Part shown: in pieces, positions 11,697-23,711 of the stretch
How positions within the stretch are numbered: the first letter of the stretch is position 1
How the letters are laid out: each line of letters begins with the position of its first letter
From: a virus
Virus record (IMG/VR): IMGVR_UViG_3300044825_003179
Coordinates: 1-23,790 of that record
DNA length: 23,790 nucleotides
Strand: one strand, 5' to 3'
Program-made: the position numbers and the translations under genes
The notes under the pieces: generated by a model
Told to the model about the DNA's origin: nothing
Database searches by the model: none
Seen by the model: the letters and a program-made list of their open reading frames with translations, nothing else

Positions 11697-12110
11697 TCAG
11701 GTCAGGTCCATGAACGGGTTGTGGGCGACTTCCCACAAGAAGCCGTCCGGGTCGGCGAAATATCCCGAGTAGCCGCCCCAGAACACTTTCTGCCCGGGCT
11801 TTTGCAGCGTGGCGCCCGCAGCGACGGCTTCGGCCAGCACGGCATCGACATCCTCAGGTGAAGCGACGTTGTGCGCCAGGGTGAATCCCGGAAACCCCGA
11901 TCCCGTGCTGTCGGGGGTGGCGTTGGCATGGGCGTCCTCGGCCAGTTTCTCGCGGGGAAACAGCGCCAGGACCAGGCCGTTGGCCGTGTCCAGGAAGGCG
12001 ATGTCTTCGGTGCTTTCCTGCCTCACCGCAAAACCCAAGCGCTCGTAAAAGGCGCGTGACCTCGGCAAATCGCCAACCCCCAGCGTGATGAGACTGATGC
12101 GCGGTTTCAT
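11697..12110 (-). CDS. VOC-family (glyoxalase/bleomycin-resistance fold) protein, cargo gene
   Basis: This 137-residue protein has two βαβββ units of the vicinal oxygen chelate fold. The N-terminal unit is ISLITLGVGDLPRSRAFYER with LGFAV. The C-terminal unit is EDVDAVLAEAVAAGATL followed by GYSGYFADPDGFLWEVAHNP. The closing W-E-V-A-H-N-P is the hallmark of PF00903-type proteins, and its Glu is usually a metal ligand. It is cytosolic, with no signal sequence. Substrates in this superfamily vary widely (lactoylglutathione lyase, antibiotic binding, ring-cleaving dioxygenases), so none can be assigned. The gene is reversed between two tail genes, 4 bases from the convergent neighbour, so it is cargo rather than a tail component. 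A poly-G run precedes its start. GC content looks similar to the neighbours. Confidence 0.88.
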   Translation of the reverse strand: MKPRISLITLGVGDLPRSRAFYERLGFAVRQESTEDIAFLDTANGLVLALFPREKLAEDAHANATPDSTGSGFPGFTLAHNVASPEDVDAVLAEAVAAGATLQKPGQKVFWGGYSGYFADPDGFLWEVAHNPFMDLT

Positions 12111-12147
12111 CCTGGTTCCCCCCCCTCATTCCAGAAACGACGATCTT

Positions 12148-13830
12148 ATGCCCATCCTTTCAGGTGATGTCAAACTGCTGAAGTCGGCCAACATGGCGGA
12201 CGTACTCGAGGGTGGCGGGGCGCCGACCGGCTTGCAGATTGCCGACGGCGTCAGCAACTCGATCTTCCCCGACGTGTCGGAACTGGACCGCGCCGGTGGC
12301 CGGGTCAACCTGCGCAAGACCTTCGTCGGCGTGCAGACCGATGACACCGATGTCTATTTCGGGGCCAACGTGATCGTGGCCGAGCCGCCCGAGGACCCGC
12401 GCGTGTCGGTGACGCTGTTCACCAACAAGCAGACCTTCGACACGCGCAGCCAGGTGTCCAGCCGGGTCGAGTCCTACCTGAACGCCGGTCCCGAGATCGA
12501 CGGCTACCTGTACGAGAACCACATCACCGGCCAGCGTTCGATCCAGATCTTCCAGCGCTTGGAGGCGGCACCGCCGACGATTGGCCGCACCCTGGTGCTG
12601 CGCAAGAACGAGGGCCAGCCGACCGAATACGAGCAGTACGTGCGGATCACCCGAGTGGTGGTGGAGGAACGGGGCTTCACGGTTCCAGGTGGCCAGATCG
12701 ATTACCGCGCCAACGTCGTGACCTGCGACCTGTCGGATGCTTTGCGGGCGGATTTTCCCGGCTCGCCGGCCAGCCGGGACTTCATCAAGCTACCCACCGC
12801 CAGCAAGCTGCGCGACACGGTGGTGGCGGATGCCGGCATCTACTGCGGCACGACACCGCTGACGCAGGCCGGCGCCATCGGCGATGTCTACGCGCGGGTG
12901 GCGAGCGTCTACTCGCAGCTGGTGCCGGCGGCGCAGAGCGAGAACCCGCTGGTGGATCAGTACCACTCGGGGCCGTTCATCAACACGCTGGCGACCACGC
13001 CGCGCCTGGTGCAGGTGGGCGGCTCGCCGATGTCGCTGCGCACCAAGGTGACGCAGGAAACCCGTGGCTATAACTACACAGCGATCCTGAAACCGCTGCC
13101 GGCCAAAGGCAGCGTGCGGATCGTCTATCGCGCGCTGGGCAATACCTACAGCCTGGCCGATGACGGTGCTGGCAACCTGAAGGGCAACGGCAGCGGCACG
13201 GTGAGCTACCTGACCGGCTCGGTGTCGGTGACGCTGCAGGCGCTGCCCGATGACCGCAGCGCGATCGTCTACTACTGGGGGCCGAATCAGGCGTTCAGTA
13301 ACCGATCCGGTCAGGCCGGCTTCAAGCCACCGACCGTGCGGCTGACGCTGGAGCACCAGTTTGTCGAGCACGGCTCGGTGACGGTCAAATGGACTTCTGG
13401 CGGAGCGCTCAAGACCGCCACCGACGACGGGCTGGGCGGCTTCACGGGTGCAGGCGCGGGCGCGATCAACTACGTGACGGGCGAACTGTTTCTGGTGCCC
13501 AGCGCCTTCCCGGATGCCGGCACGCAGTACCAGATCGACTACCAGTGGTCCGAGGTGGTCGAGGAGGTCAAGCCGGGGCTGTCGCCGGATGCCTCGGGCT
13601 TCATCGCCCTCACGCTGGCCCAGGATCCGATGCCGGGCTCGATCGCCGTGAGCTGGGCCACGACGCAGGTGACGACGGTGACCAGTGGTTCGTCTTCGAG
13701 CGCGGCCAGCAGCGCGCGCAGTGCGATCGACGGGATCCAGACCCGTTCGTACTGGCAGCCGCCCTACACCTACTGGGTGCCAGATCCGCAGCCGTACTGG
13801 CGTACCCAAGCTGTCAGCGCCGCACGCTGA
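12148..13830 (+). CDS. Large tail-tip protein A with repeated β modules
   Basis: This 560-residue protein of unknown precise function lies in the tail-tip/fibre region. The N-terminus (LSGDVKLLKSANMADVLEGG) and the β-rich body are of a type seen in siphoviral prophages of betaproteobacteria and pseudomonads. Two similar modules are visible at about residues 320-378 (GSVRIVYRALGNTYSLADDG, ending YYWG) and 408-467 (GSVTVKWTSGGALKTATDDG, ending DYQW). Each has a central G.(I/V).Y.TG element. A degenerate start of a third (PGSIAVSWATTQ) follows. The C-terminus has a Ser-rich linker and a Trp/Tyr/Pro-rich end. The ATG at 12148 matches the expected N-terminus; upstream in-frame codons from 12085 would overlap the reversed VOC gene. 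Its ribosome binding site is weak. Confidence 0.65.
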   Translation: MPILSGDVKLLKSANMADVLEGGGAPTGLQIADGVSNSIFPDVSELDRAGGRVNLRKTFVGVQTDDTDVYFGANVIVAEPPEDPRVSVTLFTNKQTFDTRSQVSSRVESYLNAGPEIDGYLYENHITGQRSIQIFQRLEAAPPTIGRTLVLRKNEGQPTEYEQYVRITRVVVEERGFTVPGGQIDYRANVVTCDLSDALRADFPGSPASRDFIKLPTASKLRDTVVADAGIYCGTTPLTQAGAIGDVYARVASVYSQLVPAAQSENPLVDQYHSGPFINTLATTPRLVQVGGSPMSLRTKVTQETRGYNYTAILKPLPAKGSVRIVYRALGNTYSLADDGAGNLKGNGSGTVSYLTGSVSVTLQALPDDRSAIVYYWGPNQAFSNRSGQAGFKPPTVRLTLEHQFVEHGSVTVKWTSGGALKTATDDGLGGFTGAGAGAINYVTGELFLVPSAFPDAGTQYQIDYQWSEVVEEVKPGLSPDASGFIALTLAQDPMPGSIAVSWATTQVTTVTSGSSSSAASSARSAIDGIQTRSYWQPPYTYWVPDPQPYWRTQAVSAAR

Positions 13831-13856
13831 TCGCCGTCATTTCAAGGAACACCATC

Positions 13857-15794
13857 ATGGGACAAGTAGCCGTACCGGGATATTGGTACACCGGCGCGCG
13901 CTGGAAGCAGTCGAACACGGCCAGCCAAACGAGCAGCTATTCGGTCGAGGCCTCGAATTCGTCCACCACCAGCGTCACGCTGATGCACACCGCGACCGAC
14001 GATGGCGAGGGTGAGATCGCGGGCGGCATGGGCTCGGTGCTGTATTCGGCCAAGAGCCTGAACCTCAAGGTCGTCGCGGACTTCCAGGCGACCAGCTTCA
14101 AGTCGTCCTATGAGAACGCTTCCTCGTTTGAGACTTCCAGCAATGTCACCGACACCCAAGGCAGTGTCACCCCGGGCAGCACGAGTTCGGGCGGCTCGTC
14201 CAACACCAAGGGTGGCGAGTACGGCTCGCAGGAGTTCAAGGAGAACTTCGGCAGCAACTCCCTGGTGGTGCGCTACAAGACCGGTGTGGGCGTTCCGCAG
14301 TCGGCCAGCCAGACCTATACGCCGCCAGCCGTGACGCTGGACTTGGTGCCGTACACCACTGAAGCCGTGGTGCCGGGCTCGGTGCGCTTCACCTGGATGG
14401 GCACGGTCTACGAGGACTTCGAGGGCGTGATCTACCGGGGCCGCACCAGCAGCAACGCGGGCGTGGCGTCGGGCACGATCGACTACGAGAGCGGCGTGGC
14501 GACGATGAACGACTACGTCGTCAGCGGCAACCCGGCCAGCTTCACGCTCGACAGCTTGTGGACACGCAAGGGTCGCGCCGACCCGATCGCCACCCTCGCG
14601 TTCAACACGGAACTGAGCCCGATCAAGCCGGGCGGCCTGGTGCTGTCGGTGGTGGACCTGGCCGGCAACCAGTTGATCGCAACCGCCGACCTCAACGGTC
14701 GGATCCTGGCCGAGCATGTCTACGGCTCGATCGATTACGCGACCGGCTTGGTGGAGATCCAGTTCGGCGACTTCGTGACGGCGGCCAACATGACCGACGC
14801 CGAGAAGACCGAGTGGTGGTACGACGCGGACGACGTGTTCACCACCGGCGCGCTGACCGGCCAGATCTGGCGTCCGTGGCCGGTGCTGCCCGAGTCGCTG
14901 CGCTACAACGCGGTGGCCTACACCTACCTGCCGCTGGACGCCGACATCCTGGGCCTGGACCCGGTGCGCTTGCCCAGCGACGGTCGGGTACCGATCTTCC
15001 GTCCGGGCGGCTTCGCGGTCGTCGGACATACCGGCGAGTTGACCGCCACGGTCAGCAACGGCCAGACGCTCAACTGCGGTCGGGTGCGCCTGAGCCGAGT
15101 GCGCGTGCTGGGCCATGACGGCAACGTGATCCACACCGGCTACTCGGTCGACCTGGAAGCCGGCCTGGTGACGTTCACCAACGTGGGCGGCTACAGCCAG
15201 CCGGTCACGGTTCAGCACCGCATCGAGGACATGGTGCTGGTCAGCGACGTGCAGATCACGGGCCGGCTCAAGTTCACCCGGCCGCTGACGCACCAGTACC
15301 CGGTGCCGGGCAGCTATGTCTCGAGCGCGCTGGTGGCCGGCGACCTGTTCGCCCAAGTCAACACCGTGTTCGACCAGTCGTCCTGGAGCAATGCTTGGGC
15401 CGACTCACTCAATGGCAGCGCGGCGACCGGCACCTTCAACGTGACGCAGTTCCCGATCACGGTCACCAACCGGGGCGCGATCACCGAGCGCTGGGCGATC
15501 CGCTTCACCAACACGACATCGTTTGAAGTGATCGGCGAGCACGTCGGCGTCATCGCGGTCGGCAACACCAGCACCGACTGCGCGCCGCTCAATCCGGCCA
15601 CCGGCGCACCGTACTTCGTGATCCCGGCCGCCGGCTGGGGCAGCGGCTGGTCGACCGGCAACGTGCTGCGCTTCAACAGCGTGGGTGCCATGTTCCCGGT
15701 CTGGATGGTCCGCACGGTGCAGCAAGGGCCGGAAACCGTGCTGGACGACCACTTCACCGTTCTGATTCGCGGCGATGTCAACGCCAACCCGTAA
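13857..15794 (+). CDS. Large tail-tip protein B, related in style to its upstream neighbour
   Basis: This 645-residue, β-rich protein has no recognised enzymatic motif. It starts MGQVAVPGYWYTGARWKQSN, followed by Ser/Thr-rich stretches and a Ser/Gly linker around residue 105. A module resembling those in the upstream protein appears at about residues 172-234 (PGSVRFTWMGTVYEDFEGVI with ASGTIDYESGVATM). A more distant one follows near 260-305 (containing YGSIDYATGLVEIQFGDF). The C-terminal 150 residues hold strands such as RWAIRFTNTTSFEVIGEHVG and the pattern FPVWMVRTVQQGP. AAGGA lies 9 bases before the ATG at 13857; an earlier in-frame start would overlap the preceding gene by hundreds of bases. 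The gene is probably a structural tail-tip or fibre-base component. This is inferred from position between tape measure and hub genes. Confidence 0.65.
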   Translation: MGQVAVPGYWYTGARWKQSNTASQTSSYSVEASNSSTTSVTLMHTATDDGEGEIAGGMGSVLYSAKSLNLKVVADFQATSFKSSYENASSFETSSNVTDTQGSVTPGSTSSGGSSNTKGGEYGSQEFKENFGSNSLVVRYKTGVGVPQSASQTYTPPAVTLDLVPYTTEAVVPGSVRFTWMGTVYEDFEGVIYRGRTSSNAGVASGTIDYESGVATMNDYVVSGNPASFTLDSLWTRKGRADPIATLAFNTELSPIKPGGLVLSVVDLAGNQLIATADLNGRILAEHVYGSIDYATGLVEIQFGDFVTAANMTDAEKTEWWYDADDVFTTGALTGQIWRPWPVLPESLRYNAVAYTYLPLDADILGLDPVRLPSDGRVPIFRPGGFAVVGHTGELTATVSNGQTLNCGRVRLSRVRVLGHDGNVIHTGYSVDLEAGLVTFTNVGGYSQPVTVQHRIEDMVLVSDVQITGRLKFTRPLTHQYPVPGSYVSSALVAGDLFAQVNTVFDQSSWSNAWADSLNGSAATGTFNVTQFPITVTNRGAITERWAIRFTNTTSFEVIGEHVGVIAVGNTSTDCAPLNPATGAPYFVIPAAGWGSGWSTGNVLRFNSVGAMFPVWMVRTVQQGPETVLDDHFTVLIRGDVNANP

Positions 15795-17007: not shown

Positions 17008-18120
17008 ATGGCACTGCAATTAGGCGGTACCGCGCTGCTGCTCCACATGGACGGTTCCAACGGCTCCCAGGTGTTCACGGACAGTTCGGTGGCCCCGAGA
17101 ACCATCAGCGTCGCCGGAACGGCGCAGATCAGCACCGCACAGTCTGTGTTTGGCAGTTCGTCCGCCGCTGTCAACGGGACGTCCAACTACCTCTACACCA
17201 CGCTGAAGGACCCGGTCGGCTCGGGCGACTTCACGCTGGAGCTGTGGGCCAGCCTGACCCAGGCGACAGGGGGCTACCAGAACCTGATCGATTTTGGCTA
17301 TGCCAGTCCCACCCTTCGCTTTGGGGACGGCGGCTTTGGTCAAAAGCTACAGGTGGCAGTGCTCAGCCACGACGGCTCCCTCATCTATTCCTGCAACATC
17401 ACGCAGACCAGTTTCGTCGGAACCGGGTTCCACCACATCGCCTTTGTTCGCAAAGCCGGGCGGGTGTACCTGTTCGTCGATGGTGTCAAGCAGTGGCTCG
17501 GCACGGGTGTCAACCCCTCCACCTACCCGAGCCAAAGCTATTCCAGCCCCTACGACGCCAGTTCGAGAAGCCTGTCTGTGGGCTACGGTTTCGTCGGCTA
17601 TCTGGATGAGGTCCACATTGCGCTGGGCATTGCCAAGTACACCGAGGACTTCATACCGCCGAGTGCGCCGCTGAAGATCGTTGCCGGTGTGCCGGTCAAC
17701 ACCTTCCAAACCGGTGATTACACGATCGGTCGCGGCTCTGCGGGTTTCAACGCCCGCCCGGTGTTGCAGCGCAAGACGACGGATCTGCGCGACCGGGCAC
17801 CCTACGGAATGCCGATGACACTGTCTGAACTGGTCGGTGACCGCATCTACCGGCCTTGGCAGTTCAAGGGTCGGGGCCGGATCGCTGGCACGGTCAAGGA
17901 AAAGGCCAGCCCGACCGACAAGCCGGTGGCGCGCCGCGTGCGCCTGTACCGAGAGCCGGATGGTCGGCTGGTTCGCACCACCTGGAGCGACCCGGTGACG
18001 GGCGCCTACGAGTTCAGCGGCATCCCGATGGACACCAAGTACACCGTGGTCAGCCACGACTACTTGACCCTGTACCGAGCGGTACTGGCCGACAACCTGG
18101 CACCGGAGTTGATTCCATGA
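17008..18120 (+). CDS. LamG/concanavalin-A-like and CnaB-like adhesin of the tail
   Basis: This 370-residue protein has two recognisable domains. Residues about 1-225 form a LamG-like jelly roll: the opening LLLHMDGSNGSQVFTDSS, then SNYLYT, GDFTLELWASL, FHHIAFVRKAGRVYLFVDGV and GYLDEVHIALGIAKY are signature strands. Residues about 288-355 form a carboxypeptidase-regulatory/CnaB-like β-sandwich (GRIAGTVKEKASPTDKPVAR, then GAYEFSGIPMDTKYTVVSHD). The region between them is a linker. LamG domains usually bind glycans, so cell-surface attachment by the phage tail is a reasonable inference, not shown. The start follows the previous stop by one base, with GGGAG upstream. The stop overlaps the next start (ATGA). 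No signal peptide is seen, as expected for a virion protein. Confidence 0.8.
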   Translation: MALQLGGTALLLHMDGSNGSQVFTDSSVAPRTISVAGTAQISTAQSVFGSSSAAVNGTSNYLYTTLKDPVGSGDFTLELWASLTQATGGYQNLIDFGYASPTLRFGDGGFGQKLQVAVLSHDGSLIYSCNITQTSFVGTGFHHIAFVRKAGRVYLFVDGVKQWLGTGVNPSTYPSQSYSSPYDASSRSLSVGYGFVGYLDEVHIALGIAKYTEDFIPPSAPLKIVAGVPVNTFQTGDYTIGRGSAGFNARPVLQRKTTDLRDRAPYGMPMTLSELVGDRIYRPWQFKGRGRIAGTVKEKASPTDKPVARRVRLYREPDGRLVRTTWSDPVTGAYEFSGIPMDTKYTVVSHDYLTLYRAVLADNLAPELIP

Positions 18121-18512
18121 CGATTGCCATCACCATCAAACACAACACCGCCCGACTGGCAGGCTCACTGGCCGACCTGGACGCTGGCACCGGCAATGCG
18201 GCCATCCGCATCTACGGCGGCACGCGCCCGGCCACCCCGGACACGCCTCCCACGGAAGCCGCGCTGGTCGAGATCGGGCTGACCAAGCCGGCCGGCACGG
18301 TGAGCGGCGGCGTGCTGACGCTGACCCAGGCCGACAACGGGCTGATCATGAACTCGGGCACCGCGACCTGGGCGCGCGTGGTAGACGGAGCCGGGGCTAC
18401 CTGCTTCGACTGCGATGCGGGCGAGGGTATAGGCGCGTGGGAGATCCAGTTGTCGCAGGTGGTGCTGTACGCTGGCGGCGAGGTGGCCCTGGTGTCGGCA
18501 GTGCTCGGCTAA
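18117..18512 (+). CDS. Small conserved tail-region protein of unknown function
   Basis: This 131-residue, mostly β protein starts in an ATGA overlap with the LamG gene, with GGAG 8 bases upstream. The visible pattern is ITIKHNTARLAGSLADLDAG, then AAIRIYGGTRP, LVEIGLTKPAG, and a Cys-containing segment ATCFDCDAG near the end. The C-terminal strands (WEIQLSQVVLYAGGEVALVS) close the fold. It has no membrane segment or enzymatic motif that I recognise. Tight coupling to the LamG protein and a 3-base gap to the hub gene argue that it is a virion or tail-assembly component. Confidence 0.65.
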   Translation: MTIAITIKHNTARLAGSLADLDAGTGNAAIRIYGGTRPATPDTPPTEAALVEIGLTKPAGTVSGGVLTLTQADNGLIMNSGTATWARVVDGAGATCFDCDAGEGIGAWEIQLSQVVLYAGGEVALVSAVLG

Positions 18513-18515
18513 GAC

Positions 18516-21155
18516 ATGGCGGCCGACGATCTCCTGTTCGAGACGCCGGCGCCGGCCAGCCCGGCGATGGTGTTCGGCGCCGGGGCGCCGGCCGCGCCGC
18601 TGGCACCAGAAGTTCTGCGGTTTGAGGCTGTTGCACCGGCCAGTCCCAATCTGTGCTTTGGCGCCGAGGGAGCGGATACCTCGCTGCCGACGACGGAAGC
18701 GGTGCTAGCGGGCATGCTGCCGCTGCCAGTGCTGCTGGCCGAGGGCCGGGTGGCGATCCCGGCGCAGCTCACGGGCACGTTGCCGGGCCTGACGCTGCAG
18801 GCCAGCCTGCGCTCGCCGGGCCTGGTCGATCTGGCCGCGACCCTGCCACGACCCACTCTGTTAGCCCTGGCCGTGGCGAGGGTGGATGCTGCCCTGGGCT
18901 GCACGCTGCCTGGTCCGGTGCTGCGCGCTGGTGTGTCCGCACCGGTCAATGCGGCCCTGACGGGCACGCTAGCTGATCCGACCTTTGCCGCGCGCGCGCA
19001 GACGGCGCAACCTGGCGTCAAGCTGGTGTTCTCGCGCGATCCGGCGACCGATGGCAATCTGCTGTTCGGCCCGGAGATCGAGACGCAGTATGCGGACTTG
19101 ACGGGCGCGCTACCAGAGCCAGCCTTTGCCGCCAGCATCGGTCCGCAGCAGCAGGTCGTGCGGCTGCGCTTCGCAGTGGAGGCATCCAGCAGCACGCAGC
19201 TGGTGTTTGGCCGCGATGGCGAGGCGCCAGTCAAGGTGGAGTCCGCCACGCTGGCGGGCATGCTGCCGGCTCCGACGCTGCAGGCGCAGGCGAGCTACCG
19301 ACAGGACATCGCGCTGACGGGCACACTGCAGGGGCCGACTTTCCGGGCGTTCGGTGCTGTCACGGTCGAGGTGTCTCTGACAGGTGTTCTGCCTAGCCAG
19401 ACGCTGTTGGCCAAGACGCGCAGCATCGCAAGCGCCAGGCTGACCGGCACGCTGCCGATGCTTGATGTGCTGGCCGACACCCGCTACCTGAGCAACACCT
19501 CGCGACCCATGGTGGGCCAGCGCACGACCGTCTGGAGTCCGACCAGCCTGGCCGACCAGACCGGTTTGGAGCACCGCCAGCAGGTGGGGCAGAAGGTGCC
19601 AGTCGGGTGGCAGCAAGCCTGGCAACAGGGGCTGACCACCCAGCCCGGGGTCGACCATCCGTTGCCCAAGGTGCTGGCCCGCGATCATGTGCCGGGCGAG
19701 TCGGGCTTTCAGGTGGCCCAGCCGTTGCCGGATCTGACCGCGTTCCGCCACCAGGAGGCGGCGCGCAGCGTGCGAGTGCTGCTGTCCGATGCCTTCGAGC
19801 AGGCAGCGGCGTTGCGCGATGCCACGGGCTTTCGTCACCAGGTGGCCGATCGGGATAAGCGCGGCTGGACGCAGGGTGATTGGGACAACGCGCGCGGTCT
19901 GGCCGCACGCTGGCGGACGAGCTTCCAGCCGACTGTGCCCTGGGTGCTGCGTTACGGCGGGCGTCACCAGGATGCCAAGGTGCCGCCACCGGGCATCAGC
20001 ATCTTCACCCGGCCCAAGCCACCGGGACCGCCACCGTGCTACACGCCCGATCCGCATCTGCTGTTCTCTGAAGCCTTCGGTGCGATGCCGCATCTCGTCT
20101 TTGTATGTCAGGGCCAACGTCCCGATTTCGTCGGGACGGTCGTCGTTCCCGTCAGGAGGGTGTATTTCGTGATCAACAACGTGAGCCTGCACCGCGTGGC
20201 CGATGGCATGGAGGTGCCGGTCTACAGTCTTTCGCTCTCGCTCGATGCCTCGTCCTGGACCTGGGGCTTCGAGGCGCGCTTGCCCGCCCAGGCCGAAGCC
20301 TTGGTCGCTTCCAGCCAGGCGTCCGAGCCGGTCAAGCTCGCCGCCCGCGTCAACGGCACGCTGTTTTGCGTCTACGCCGAACACATCAGCCGCGAGCGAA
20401 CCTTTGGCGAGGCGAGCATCCGTGTCTCTGGCCGTGGGCGCAACGCCGTGCTGGGCGCACCCTATGCGCCGGTCATGACCTTCCGCAATGGCGATCTGCG
20501 CAGTGCACAGCAGTTGATGGAGGATGTGCTGACCGTCAACGGCGTGCCCCTGGGCTGGACGATCGATTGGGGCCTGACGGACTGGAACGTCCCAGCGGGC
20601 GTGTTCTCCTTGCAAGGCACCTGGATCGAGGCGCTGACGACGATCGCCACGGCGGCCGGCGCCTATCTGCTACCCCATCCCGCAGGGCAAAGCCTCCGGG
20701 TGCGCCGTCGCTATCCCGTGCCACCCTGGGAATGGGAGTCGATCACGCCGGATTTTGTGTTGCCCGTGGACGCTGTCTCGCGCGAGTCGCTGCGCTGGCT
20801 CAAGAAGCCCGCGTACAACCGCGTGTTCGTGTCCGGGCAGGAGGTCGGGGTGCTCGGGCAAGTGACCCGGGCTGGCACCGCAGGCGACATCTTGGCGCCG
20901 ATGGTCGTCGACCCGCTCATCACCGAAGTGGCTGCCGCTCGCCAGCGAGGCCTCGCCGTGTTGGCCGACACTGGCTCTCAACTCGAGGTCAACCTGCGCC
21001 TGCCGGTGCTGGCCGAGACCGGCATCATCGAACCGGGCGCCTTCGTGGAGTACCGGGAGGGCAGCGTCACTCGGCTGGGCCTTGTGCGCTCGACGCAGAT
21101 CGAAGCCGGCCTGCCGGAAGTCTGGCAAACCCTGGGAGTTCAGAGCTATGCATAA
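18516..21155 (+). CDS. Tail hub/baseplate-like protein with a repeat-built N-terminal extension
   Basis: This 879-residue protein has three parts. Residues 1-325 are repeats: ten units with the consensus LTGTLPxPTLxA, mostly spaced exactly 21 residues, interleaved with LxF...LxF pairs spaced 12 residues. Residues about 330-510 are a Gln/His-rich linker with recurring F-R-H-Q. From about 540 to the end is a domain resembling siphoviral/Mu gp44-type hub proteins: SLSLDASSWTWGFEARLP, IRVSGRGRNAVL, a middle WIEALTTIATAAGAYLLPHP, and a C-terminal AARQRGLAVLADTGS with PVLAETGIIEPGAFVEY. The hub sits at the tail tip and supports fibre attachment and membrane contact. The ATG at 18516 follows the previous stop by 3 bases with a weak ribosome site. 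The hub assignment is a family-pattern inference; the repeats are seen directly. Confidence 0.75.
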   Translation: MAADDLLFETPAPASPAMVFGAGAPAAPLAPEVLRFEAVAPASPNLCFGAEGADTSLPTTEAVLAGMLPLPVLLAEGRVAIPAQLTGTLPGLTLQASLRSPGLVDLAATLPRPTLLALAVARVDAALGCTLPGPVLRAGVSAPVNAALTGTLADPTFAARAQTAQPGVKLVFSRDPATDGNLLFGPEIETQYADLTGALPEPAFAASIGPQQQVVRLRFAVEASSSTQLVFGRDGEAPVKVESATLAGMLPAPTLQAQASYRQDIALTGTLQGPTFRAFGAVTVEVSLTGVLPSQTLLAKTRSIASARLTGTLPMLDVLADTRYLSNTSRPMVGQRTTVWSPTSLADQTGLEHRQQVGQKVPVGWQQAWQQGLTTQPGVDHPLPKVLARDHVPGESGFQVAQPLPDLTAFRHQEAARSVRVLLSDAFEQAAALRDATGFRHQVADRDKRGWTQGDWDNARGLAARWRTSFQPTVPWVLRYGGRHQDAKVPPPGISIFTRPKPPGPPPCYTPDPHLLFSEAFGAMPHLVFVCQGQRPDFVGTVVVPVRRVYFVINNVSLHRVADGMEVPVYSLSLSLDASSWTWGFEARLPAQAEALVASSQASEPVKLAARVNGTLFCVYAEHISRERTFGEASIRVSGRGRNAVLGAPYAPVMTFRNGDLRSAQQLMEDVLTVNGVPLGWTIDWGLTDWNVPAGVFSLQGTWIEALTTIATAAGAYLLPHPAGQSLRVRRRYPVPPWEWESITPDFVLPVDAVSRESLRWLKKPAYNRVFVSGQEVGVLGQVTRAGTAGDILAPMVVDPLITEVAAARQRGLAVLADTGSQLEVNLRLPVLAETGIIEPGAFVEYREGSVTRLGLVRSTQIEAGLPEVWQTLGVQSYA
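18699..19481 (+). repeat. Tandem 21-residue (63-bp) coding repeats in the hub protein
   Basis: Ten protein repeats (consensus L-(T/A)-G-(T/M)-L-P-x-P-T-L-x-A) begin at hub residues 64, 85, 106, 127, 148, 195, 246, 267, 288 and 309. Within the two tandem blocks every step is exactly 21 residues. The DNA copies are diverged, so selection acts on the protein pattern. LxF-type inserts separate the two blocks and the single unit. Confidence 0.85.
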
Positions 21156-22720: not shown

Positions 22721-23671
22721 TCAAGGCTGCTGAATTGCCCGACGCAGCGACGCAGAGATATCCCAGACGTTTGACTGGCCGCCCATGTATCTGGAAACCT
22801 TGATGTGATTGTTTGCTTCCAGCAGGTTCAGCACGAAGTCGACGAAGGCGCGGGGTTTGTCGACACGCGTCGCCAATTCCTCGTTAATGCGGACGTTCTC
22901 ATTGACCAGCAGCGCGGCGATCCGGGCCACTACGTCCTGATAGCCCTCGACATACGCTTCTGCGAACTGCTGAAAACCGTAGTCCGTCAGCACGACATGC
23001 GACAGCGGTGCTCCGAGAACCCGCCCGATTTTGATGTAGTAGTGCTGTTCGAGAATTTCCAGCGAGTCGAGAAGCTCCTGCTGCGGCACATCTTGGAGCG
23101 CCGGTTCGGCGCGCAGCCGATCCCAGTCCACAAGACCTGCATCGTCGTCGATTTGCATCTGGGCAATTACACGCAAGGCTAAGTCATCAACCCGCGTCAA
23201 GCCGGAGATCAATGGCGCTGGCCCGGAGAATCTGGCAGGCGGTTGGCCGATAGTGGGCTTATCGTCTGTGTCGAAGATCGCCGACAGGATACGCTGCAAG
23301 CTCTGGCTGTAGTCGGTGAGGTCATCGACCCGCTGCCAGAGGGTGGATCGCAGGCTTTCGGGCACGTCACAATCGTCAATGACCACAGGGATCAATCGGG
23401 TACCACGGCTGATCTTGTTGACCACCGAGGTATTTAGCTCTTCCCGAACCCAAGGCTTCTGAACACTGATCTTGGACAAGACGATGATGACGGCCCGTGC
23501 CTCCTTTAGTCCTTCTTCGAAGATCCTGTCCACCAAACTATCACCCGGCTTCATCTCCCATTGATCGAGCCAAGCGTCTACGCCGTTCTCACGTAAGCGC
23601 CTCGCGAAGTCAACCACAAAGCGTGTTTTGTCTTCACTGGCATGGCTCAAAAAAACTTTTGGTGGACTCAT
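22721..23671 (-). CDS. TIR-domain protein with tandem winged-helix-like C-terminal region (predicted NADase defence effector)
   Basis: This 316-residue protein (from ATG 23671) is convergent with the endolysin. Residues 4-110 form a TIR domain of the TIR_2 type: KVFLSHASEDK, VDAWLDQWEMKPGDSL, AVIIVLSKISVQ, PWVREEL and RLIPVVIDD. The WxxxE motif (Trp74-Glu78) places the catalytic Glu of NAD-cleaving TIR enzymes at Glu78. After a Pro-rich linker (about 140-160) the C-terminal half looks like two winged helices (about 165-240 and 245-310), a possible sensing or DNA/RNA-binding part. Bacterial TIR proteins commonly kill infected cells by depleting NAD+. A similar role here is inferred. The gene looks lower in GC than the phage genes. 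Longer in-frame starts at 23695 and 23707 lie inside the adjacent IS end, and AAGGGG precedes 23671, so this start is preferred. Confidence 0.85.
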   Translation of the reverse strand: MSPPKVFLSHASEDKTRFVVDFARRLRENGVDAWLDQWEMKPGDSLVDRIFEEGLKEARAVIIVLSKISVQKPWVREELNTSVVNKISRGTRLIPVVIDDCDVPESLRSTLWQRVDDLTDYSQSLQRILSAIFDTDDKPTIGQPPARFSGPAPLISGLTRVDDLALRVIAQMQIDDDAGLVDWDRLRAEPALQDVPQQELLDSLEILEQHYYIKIGRVLGAPLSHVVLTDYGFQQFAEAYVEGYQDVVARIAALLVNENVRINEELATRVDKPRAFVDFVLNLLEANNHIKVSRYMGGQSNVWDISASLRRAIQQP

Positions 23672-23692
23672 GCTAGCGAAGCCCCTTAAATC

Positions 23693-23711
23693 CATCCCGT
23701 TATACACATCT
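23693..23711 (+). repeat. Left terminal inverted repeat of an IS50/Tn5-like element
   Basis: The 19 bases end in TTATACACATCT (23700-23711), identical to positions 8-19 of the Tn5 mosaic end, and 14 of 19 positions match overall. TTATACACA within it fits the DnaA-box form TTATNCACA, as in the outside end of IS50. The orientation points inward toward the transposase start at 23749. The outermost boundary is uncertain by a few bases. Confidence 0.65.
23699..23704 (-). promoter_or_regulatory. Possible -10 hexamer for the TIR gene, inside the IS end
   Basis: Read on the minus strand this is TATAAC, a 5/6 match to TATAAT. It sits about 28 bases before the preferred TIR start, so transcripts would begin around 23692 and carry the AAGGGG ribosome site. 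No good -35 was found at 17 bases. An ATGACA lies too far upstream, at a 23-base spacing. Weak evidence. Confidence 0.3.

Follow-up and report, generated by a model that had tools for sequence, protein, structure and literature searches.

A 21-residue repeat of variable copy number in the N-terminal extension of a phage tail hub protein

The window, i.e. the whole stretch of 23,790 nucleotides analysed here (IMG/VR virus record IMGVR_UViG_3300044825_003179), contains an open reading frame (ORF) for a tail hub protein of 879 amino acids, preceded by genes for a virion structural protein and a LamG-like protein (Table 1). A homologue of the virion structural protein gene is found in 157 of 185 related loci. 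The hub protein matches phrog_6079 (tail protein) over residues 215-877 (E 1.9e-121), and thereby covers nearly the full profile (positions 4-602 of 605). Relatives within the phrog_6079 family share with it the 16-residue boxes and the 21-residue units described below, but the match begins at the fourth box and leaves out ~214 N-terminal residues that include three boxes and six units.

Table 1 Features of the tail hub gene and its upstream neighbours in the window
Feature	Position	Strand	Basis or remark
LamG-like protein, upstream	17008-18120		Pfam Laminin_G_3
Virion structural protein, phrog_3758, directly upstream of hub gene	18117..18512	+	E 7.2e-21
Tail hub protein, 879 aa	18516..21155	+	ORF; C-terminal hub domain and ~547-aa N-terminal extension
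Box 1, residues 6-21, LLFETPAPASPAMVFG	18531..18578	+	LxF-x10-LxFG pattern
Box 2, residues 34-49, LRFEAVAPASPNLCFG	18615..18662	+	LxF-x10-LxFG pattern
Array A, five tandem units, starts 64, 85, 106, 127, 148	18705..19019	+	Motif and unit profile
Box 3, residues 170-185, LVFSRDPATDGNLLFG	19023..19070	+	LxF-x10-LxFG pattern
Unit 6, residue 195	19098..19160	+	Unit profile
Box 4, residues 217-232, LRFAVEASSSTQLVFG	19164..19211	+	LxF-x10-LxFG pattern
Array B, four tandem units, starts 246, 267, 288, 309	19251..19502	+	Unit profile, module alignment
Middle region, residues 330-549, RPxVG motif to hub domain	19503..20162	+	Near-fixed length in relatives
Predicted hub domain, residues ~550-879, Mu gp44/T4 gp27 type	20163..21152	+	AF2 and PDB comparison

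Three further ORFs or ORF pairs were observed elsewhere in the window. A TIR-domain ORF on the - strand (22721-23707; Pfam TIR_2, 3.4e-27; PADLOC bSEFIR, 1.9e-23) is possibly a phage-borne defence gene. A glyoxalase-superfamily ORF (11697-12110, - strand; Pfam PF00903, 6.7e-18) runs opposite to the tail operon in which it is located. The phrog_6128 protein (12085-15794; profile of 1200 positions) is split into ORFs at 12085-13830 and about 13857-15794, both parts of which match one single ORF in 145 related loci and are separate ORFs in 9 others; the split may be a fission or a frameshift.

The C-terminal part of the hub protein was predicted by AlphaFold (AF2) with a pLDDT of mostly 91-98 across residues ~550-879, and can with confidence be assigned, on the basis of this model, to the Mu gp44/T4 gp27 type of hub domain. 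PDB alignments extend across the whole domain (Z 17-23, about residues 553-879), the best being with 8fqc_C1 (Z 22.8, rmsd 3.3, 294 aligned residues), and include Mu gp44 (9ki1_G, Z 21.7, rmsd 3.4, 296 aligned) and 1wru (Z 20.5), as well as T4 gp27, VgrG and related hubs; the comparison, made with the full-length model, covers residues 548-879 only and says nothing about the repeats. The alignment begins within about the first 15 residues of most of the matched PDB hub chains. Most of these chains thus start at the hub fold, whereas the phage protein has ~547 residues before it, and the extension is therefore extra to the common fold.

Ten 21-residue units in this extension, at the starting residues given in the original prediction (Table 1), were confirmed. 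The loose motif L[TAG][GAC][TMVA]L has exactly ten matches in the 879-residue protein, all at these positions and none elsewhere, and each of the seven tandem steps measures exactly 21 residues. The self-similarity of residues 1-335 was highest at lag 21 (z 6.3), followed by lags 42 (4.3) and 63 (2.8), relative to 300 shuffles. When held out from the profile, the unit cores scored 14.5-23.8 bits each, compared with a mean best score of ~7.2 in shuffles, and no non-unit window outscored them. A chance origin of the ten-unit periodicity is excluded. The repeats do lie in the span first proposed, 18699-19481, but its end cuts the tenth unit, which really ends at ~19502. At the DNA level the units have diverged, as had been noted (mean identity 48 %, maximum 63 %; mean amino acid identity 36 %), and the repeat therefore does not look like a product of recent slippage; Tandem Repeats Finder found no array in the DNA.

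The two non-tandem steps, of 47 (residues 148 to 195) and 51 (195 to 246) residues, each hold an inserted 16-residue box which the original prediction did not mention. Four boxes with the LxF-x10-LxFG pattern are present in the N-terminal 345 amino acids, compared with 0.12 expected in shuffles. Residues 34-132 and 217-314 align with a score of 134 (300 shuffles: mean 36, sd 8, maximum 82), both halves consisting of a box followed by tandem units, an arrangement which most relatives have once. The simplest reading of the alignment is a duplication of a box-plus-units module, together with the gain of more units, which would be the source of the extra length.

None of Pfam, PHROG or NCBIfam places a described domain on the repeats, in line with the original prediction, and no description of a 21-residue repeat was found in the open-licence literature searched. 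A sequence search with the unit profile against PDB chains gave no match at E up to 1. A tblastn search of phage records with residues 1-338 gave no match at E up to 1, and a pattern-based scan with the same N-terminal part gave 12 candidates, none of which was confirmed. Both outcomes are probably due to the repeats being short and diverged, as profile methods do detect relatives. When 251 genomes from a single bacterial family were scanned, the unit profile matched 19 places, 16 of which were in ORFs that also matched the hub profile; of the other three, one was in a decayed hub remnant and two, both above E 1e-4 and attributed to chance, were in PriA-like helicases. Across these genomes, the unit thus appears to be essentially specific to these hubs. 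It is a real repeat, undescribed in the sources searched, although the protein that bears it is otherwise of a known kind.

About 180 loci with relatives of the hub came from scans of contigs, both viral and genomic. The usual full-length relative has 620-680 residues and shares a plan in which boxes and two to four units precede an RPxVG motif, followed by the middle region, a CYTP box and the hub. Against the four boxes and ten units of the hub in the window, most relatives have one or two boxes, together with two to four units. At least two units were found in 64 of 93 non-redundant hubs, the counts being 0 (20 hubs), 1 (9), 2 (24), 3 (27), 4 (11), 7 (1) and 10 (the window), as obtained with a fixed matrix from an alignment of the same family (A4), on which the counts in relatives lean. 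The zero count in 20 hubs partly reflects a limit of sensitivity, since on visual inspection two of them (L068 and L149) appear to hold diverged units. The highest count after that of the window, seven, was in a contig of a Rhodoferax MAG (L161). The suggestion that copy number could vary between phages was thus borne out, and so was the 21-residue register: 83 of the 126 unit-to-unit steps in the 93 hubs are exactly 21 residues and 11 are 47, equal to the box-containing 148-195 step of the window, while the remaining lengths of 22, 23 and 26 are loop insertions. Two-unit segments of relatives align without gaps over the 38 rows of A4. Three hub genes (L066, L069 and L209) have truncated or broken N-terminal parts and are apparently from decayed prophages or deletions.

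In the ten nearest intact hubs (80-81 % identity in the hub domain), the N-terminal parts are 75-121 residues long, compared with 329 in the window, and have 31-41 % identity to that of the window. An extension of this kind, though with fewer units, is also borne by relatives, which argues against the idea of units added to an ordinary hub; as far as can be judged from the sequences compared, the extension is family-wide and, with ten units, unusually long in the window. The dN/dS ratio, estimated from 59 independent pairs of relatives, was 0.29 in the N-terminal part, 0.28 in the middle region and 0.11 in the hub, consistent with purifying selection on the repeat region in relatives, weaker than on the hub. 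The middle region is 218-225 residues long in most relatives (5th-95th percentile). Some relatives have a second repeat with a period of 14-15 residues and the motif W/F-Q-x-A, located after the 21-residue units and before the hub (autocorrelation at lag 14, z about 6 in L068 and L080 and 5.5 in L001); in the middle region of the window (19503-20162), a script detected no bounded region of this repeat.

Across 90 units of the family, hydrophobic residues occupy positions -2, 0, 4, 7, 9, 11 and 13, with polar or mixed residues between, and alanine or glycine is found at position 2 in 91 % and proline at position 5 in 86 %. The pattern suggests two short beta-strands around an LPx[LP] turn. The alternating hydrophobic residues, together with the purifying selection in relatives, support the earlier view of a structural protein repeat. 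The full-length AlphaFold model has a pLDDT of mostly 24-55 over the N-terminal extension, and the five-unit array modelled alone with 38 sequences had a pLDDT of 46, with strands placed on the array without confidence. Such a failure of single-chain folding, taken by itself, would fit an intertwined trimer or disorder alike. The gp32 protein of Salmonella phage Jersey, compared here by its description, also has a conserved N-terminal region, a siphophage hub domain of unknown fold that structure prediction did not place; repeats are not reported there (PMC13243795).

The best explanation, for which the chances appear about even, is that the ten units are expanded repeats of a beta-hairpin type, normal to the hub family, which form an assembly-folded rod or strap of adjustable length. 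Each unit would contribute a strand, the LPx[LP] turn and a second strand. From the sequence pattern and the failed single-chain prediction, we infer that the array would be unfolded as a single chain and would acquire its beta-structure on the assembly of three hubs or against neighbouring tail-tip proteins. The resulting rod or strap, around or beside the hub, may hold or position adhesion proteins.

A specific form of this explanation is itself unlikely. In it, the units would build a triple beta-spiral, or another intertwined trimeric shaft of this sort, with a length set by their number. Like the shafts of adenovirus and reovirus, the array would have, by its sequence pattern, short strand pairs at a turn residue, here the conserved proline, with variable loops between the repeats; the changes in spacing (22, 23, 26 and 47) fall between units and never inside the core, and an intertwined trimer would be expected to defeat single-chain prediction. 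However, the unit profile has no match among solved chains, these shafts included, and the usual repeat of triple beta-spiral shafts is shorter than the strict 21-residue step.

It is distinctly unlikely that the units or boxes are strand-addition elements docking on a tail-tip partner, the extension being a string of binding sites. The isolated-hairpin pattern with no stand-alone predicted fold would suit this reading, and a precedent is the N-terminal arm of the distal tail protein of phage JBD30, which wraps the tail fibres (PMC11445458); JBD30 gp49 and gp53 had no profile match with the hub of the window. Relatives with none to seven units have, where enough DNA was available, the same neighbour genes, mostly once each, and the unit number therefore does not follow partner copy number. 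The lack of a duplicated partner gene in high-copy phages argues against partner binding unit by unit.

A monomeric beta-solenoid, as originally suggested, would agree with the regular period of 21 residues and the alternating hydrophobic residues, but AlphaFold, which usually predicts regular solenoids well, builds none from ten or five units, making this reading very improbable. Likewise very improbable is a linker that is disordered and under little constraint, its repeat being one of composition, since, in spite of the low pLDDT throughout the array, distant relatives keep the register and the hydrophobic pattern and the dN/dS of the N-terminal part is 0.29.

With an assembly-folded rod or strap as the preferred reading, it may be proposed, tentatively and with considerable doubt, that the 21-residue unit represents a hitherto undescribed element of a trimeric beta-fibre, placed N-terminal of a gp27-type hub, and that the number of units would determine how far the tail tip reaches or how it is spaced. 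The array offers a place to look for a repeat fold to which none of the libraries searched gives a name. The unit numbers, from none found to ten, form a natural series that lends itself to the question whether the number of units influences tail-tip geometry or adsorption.
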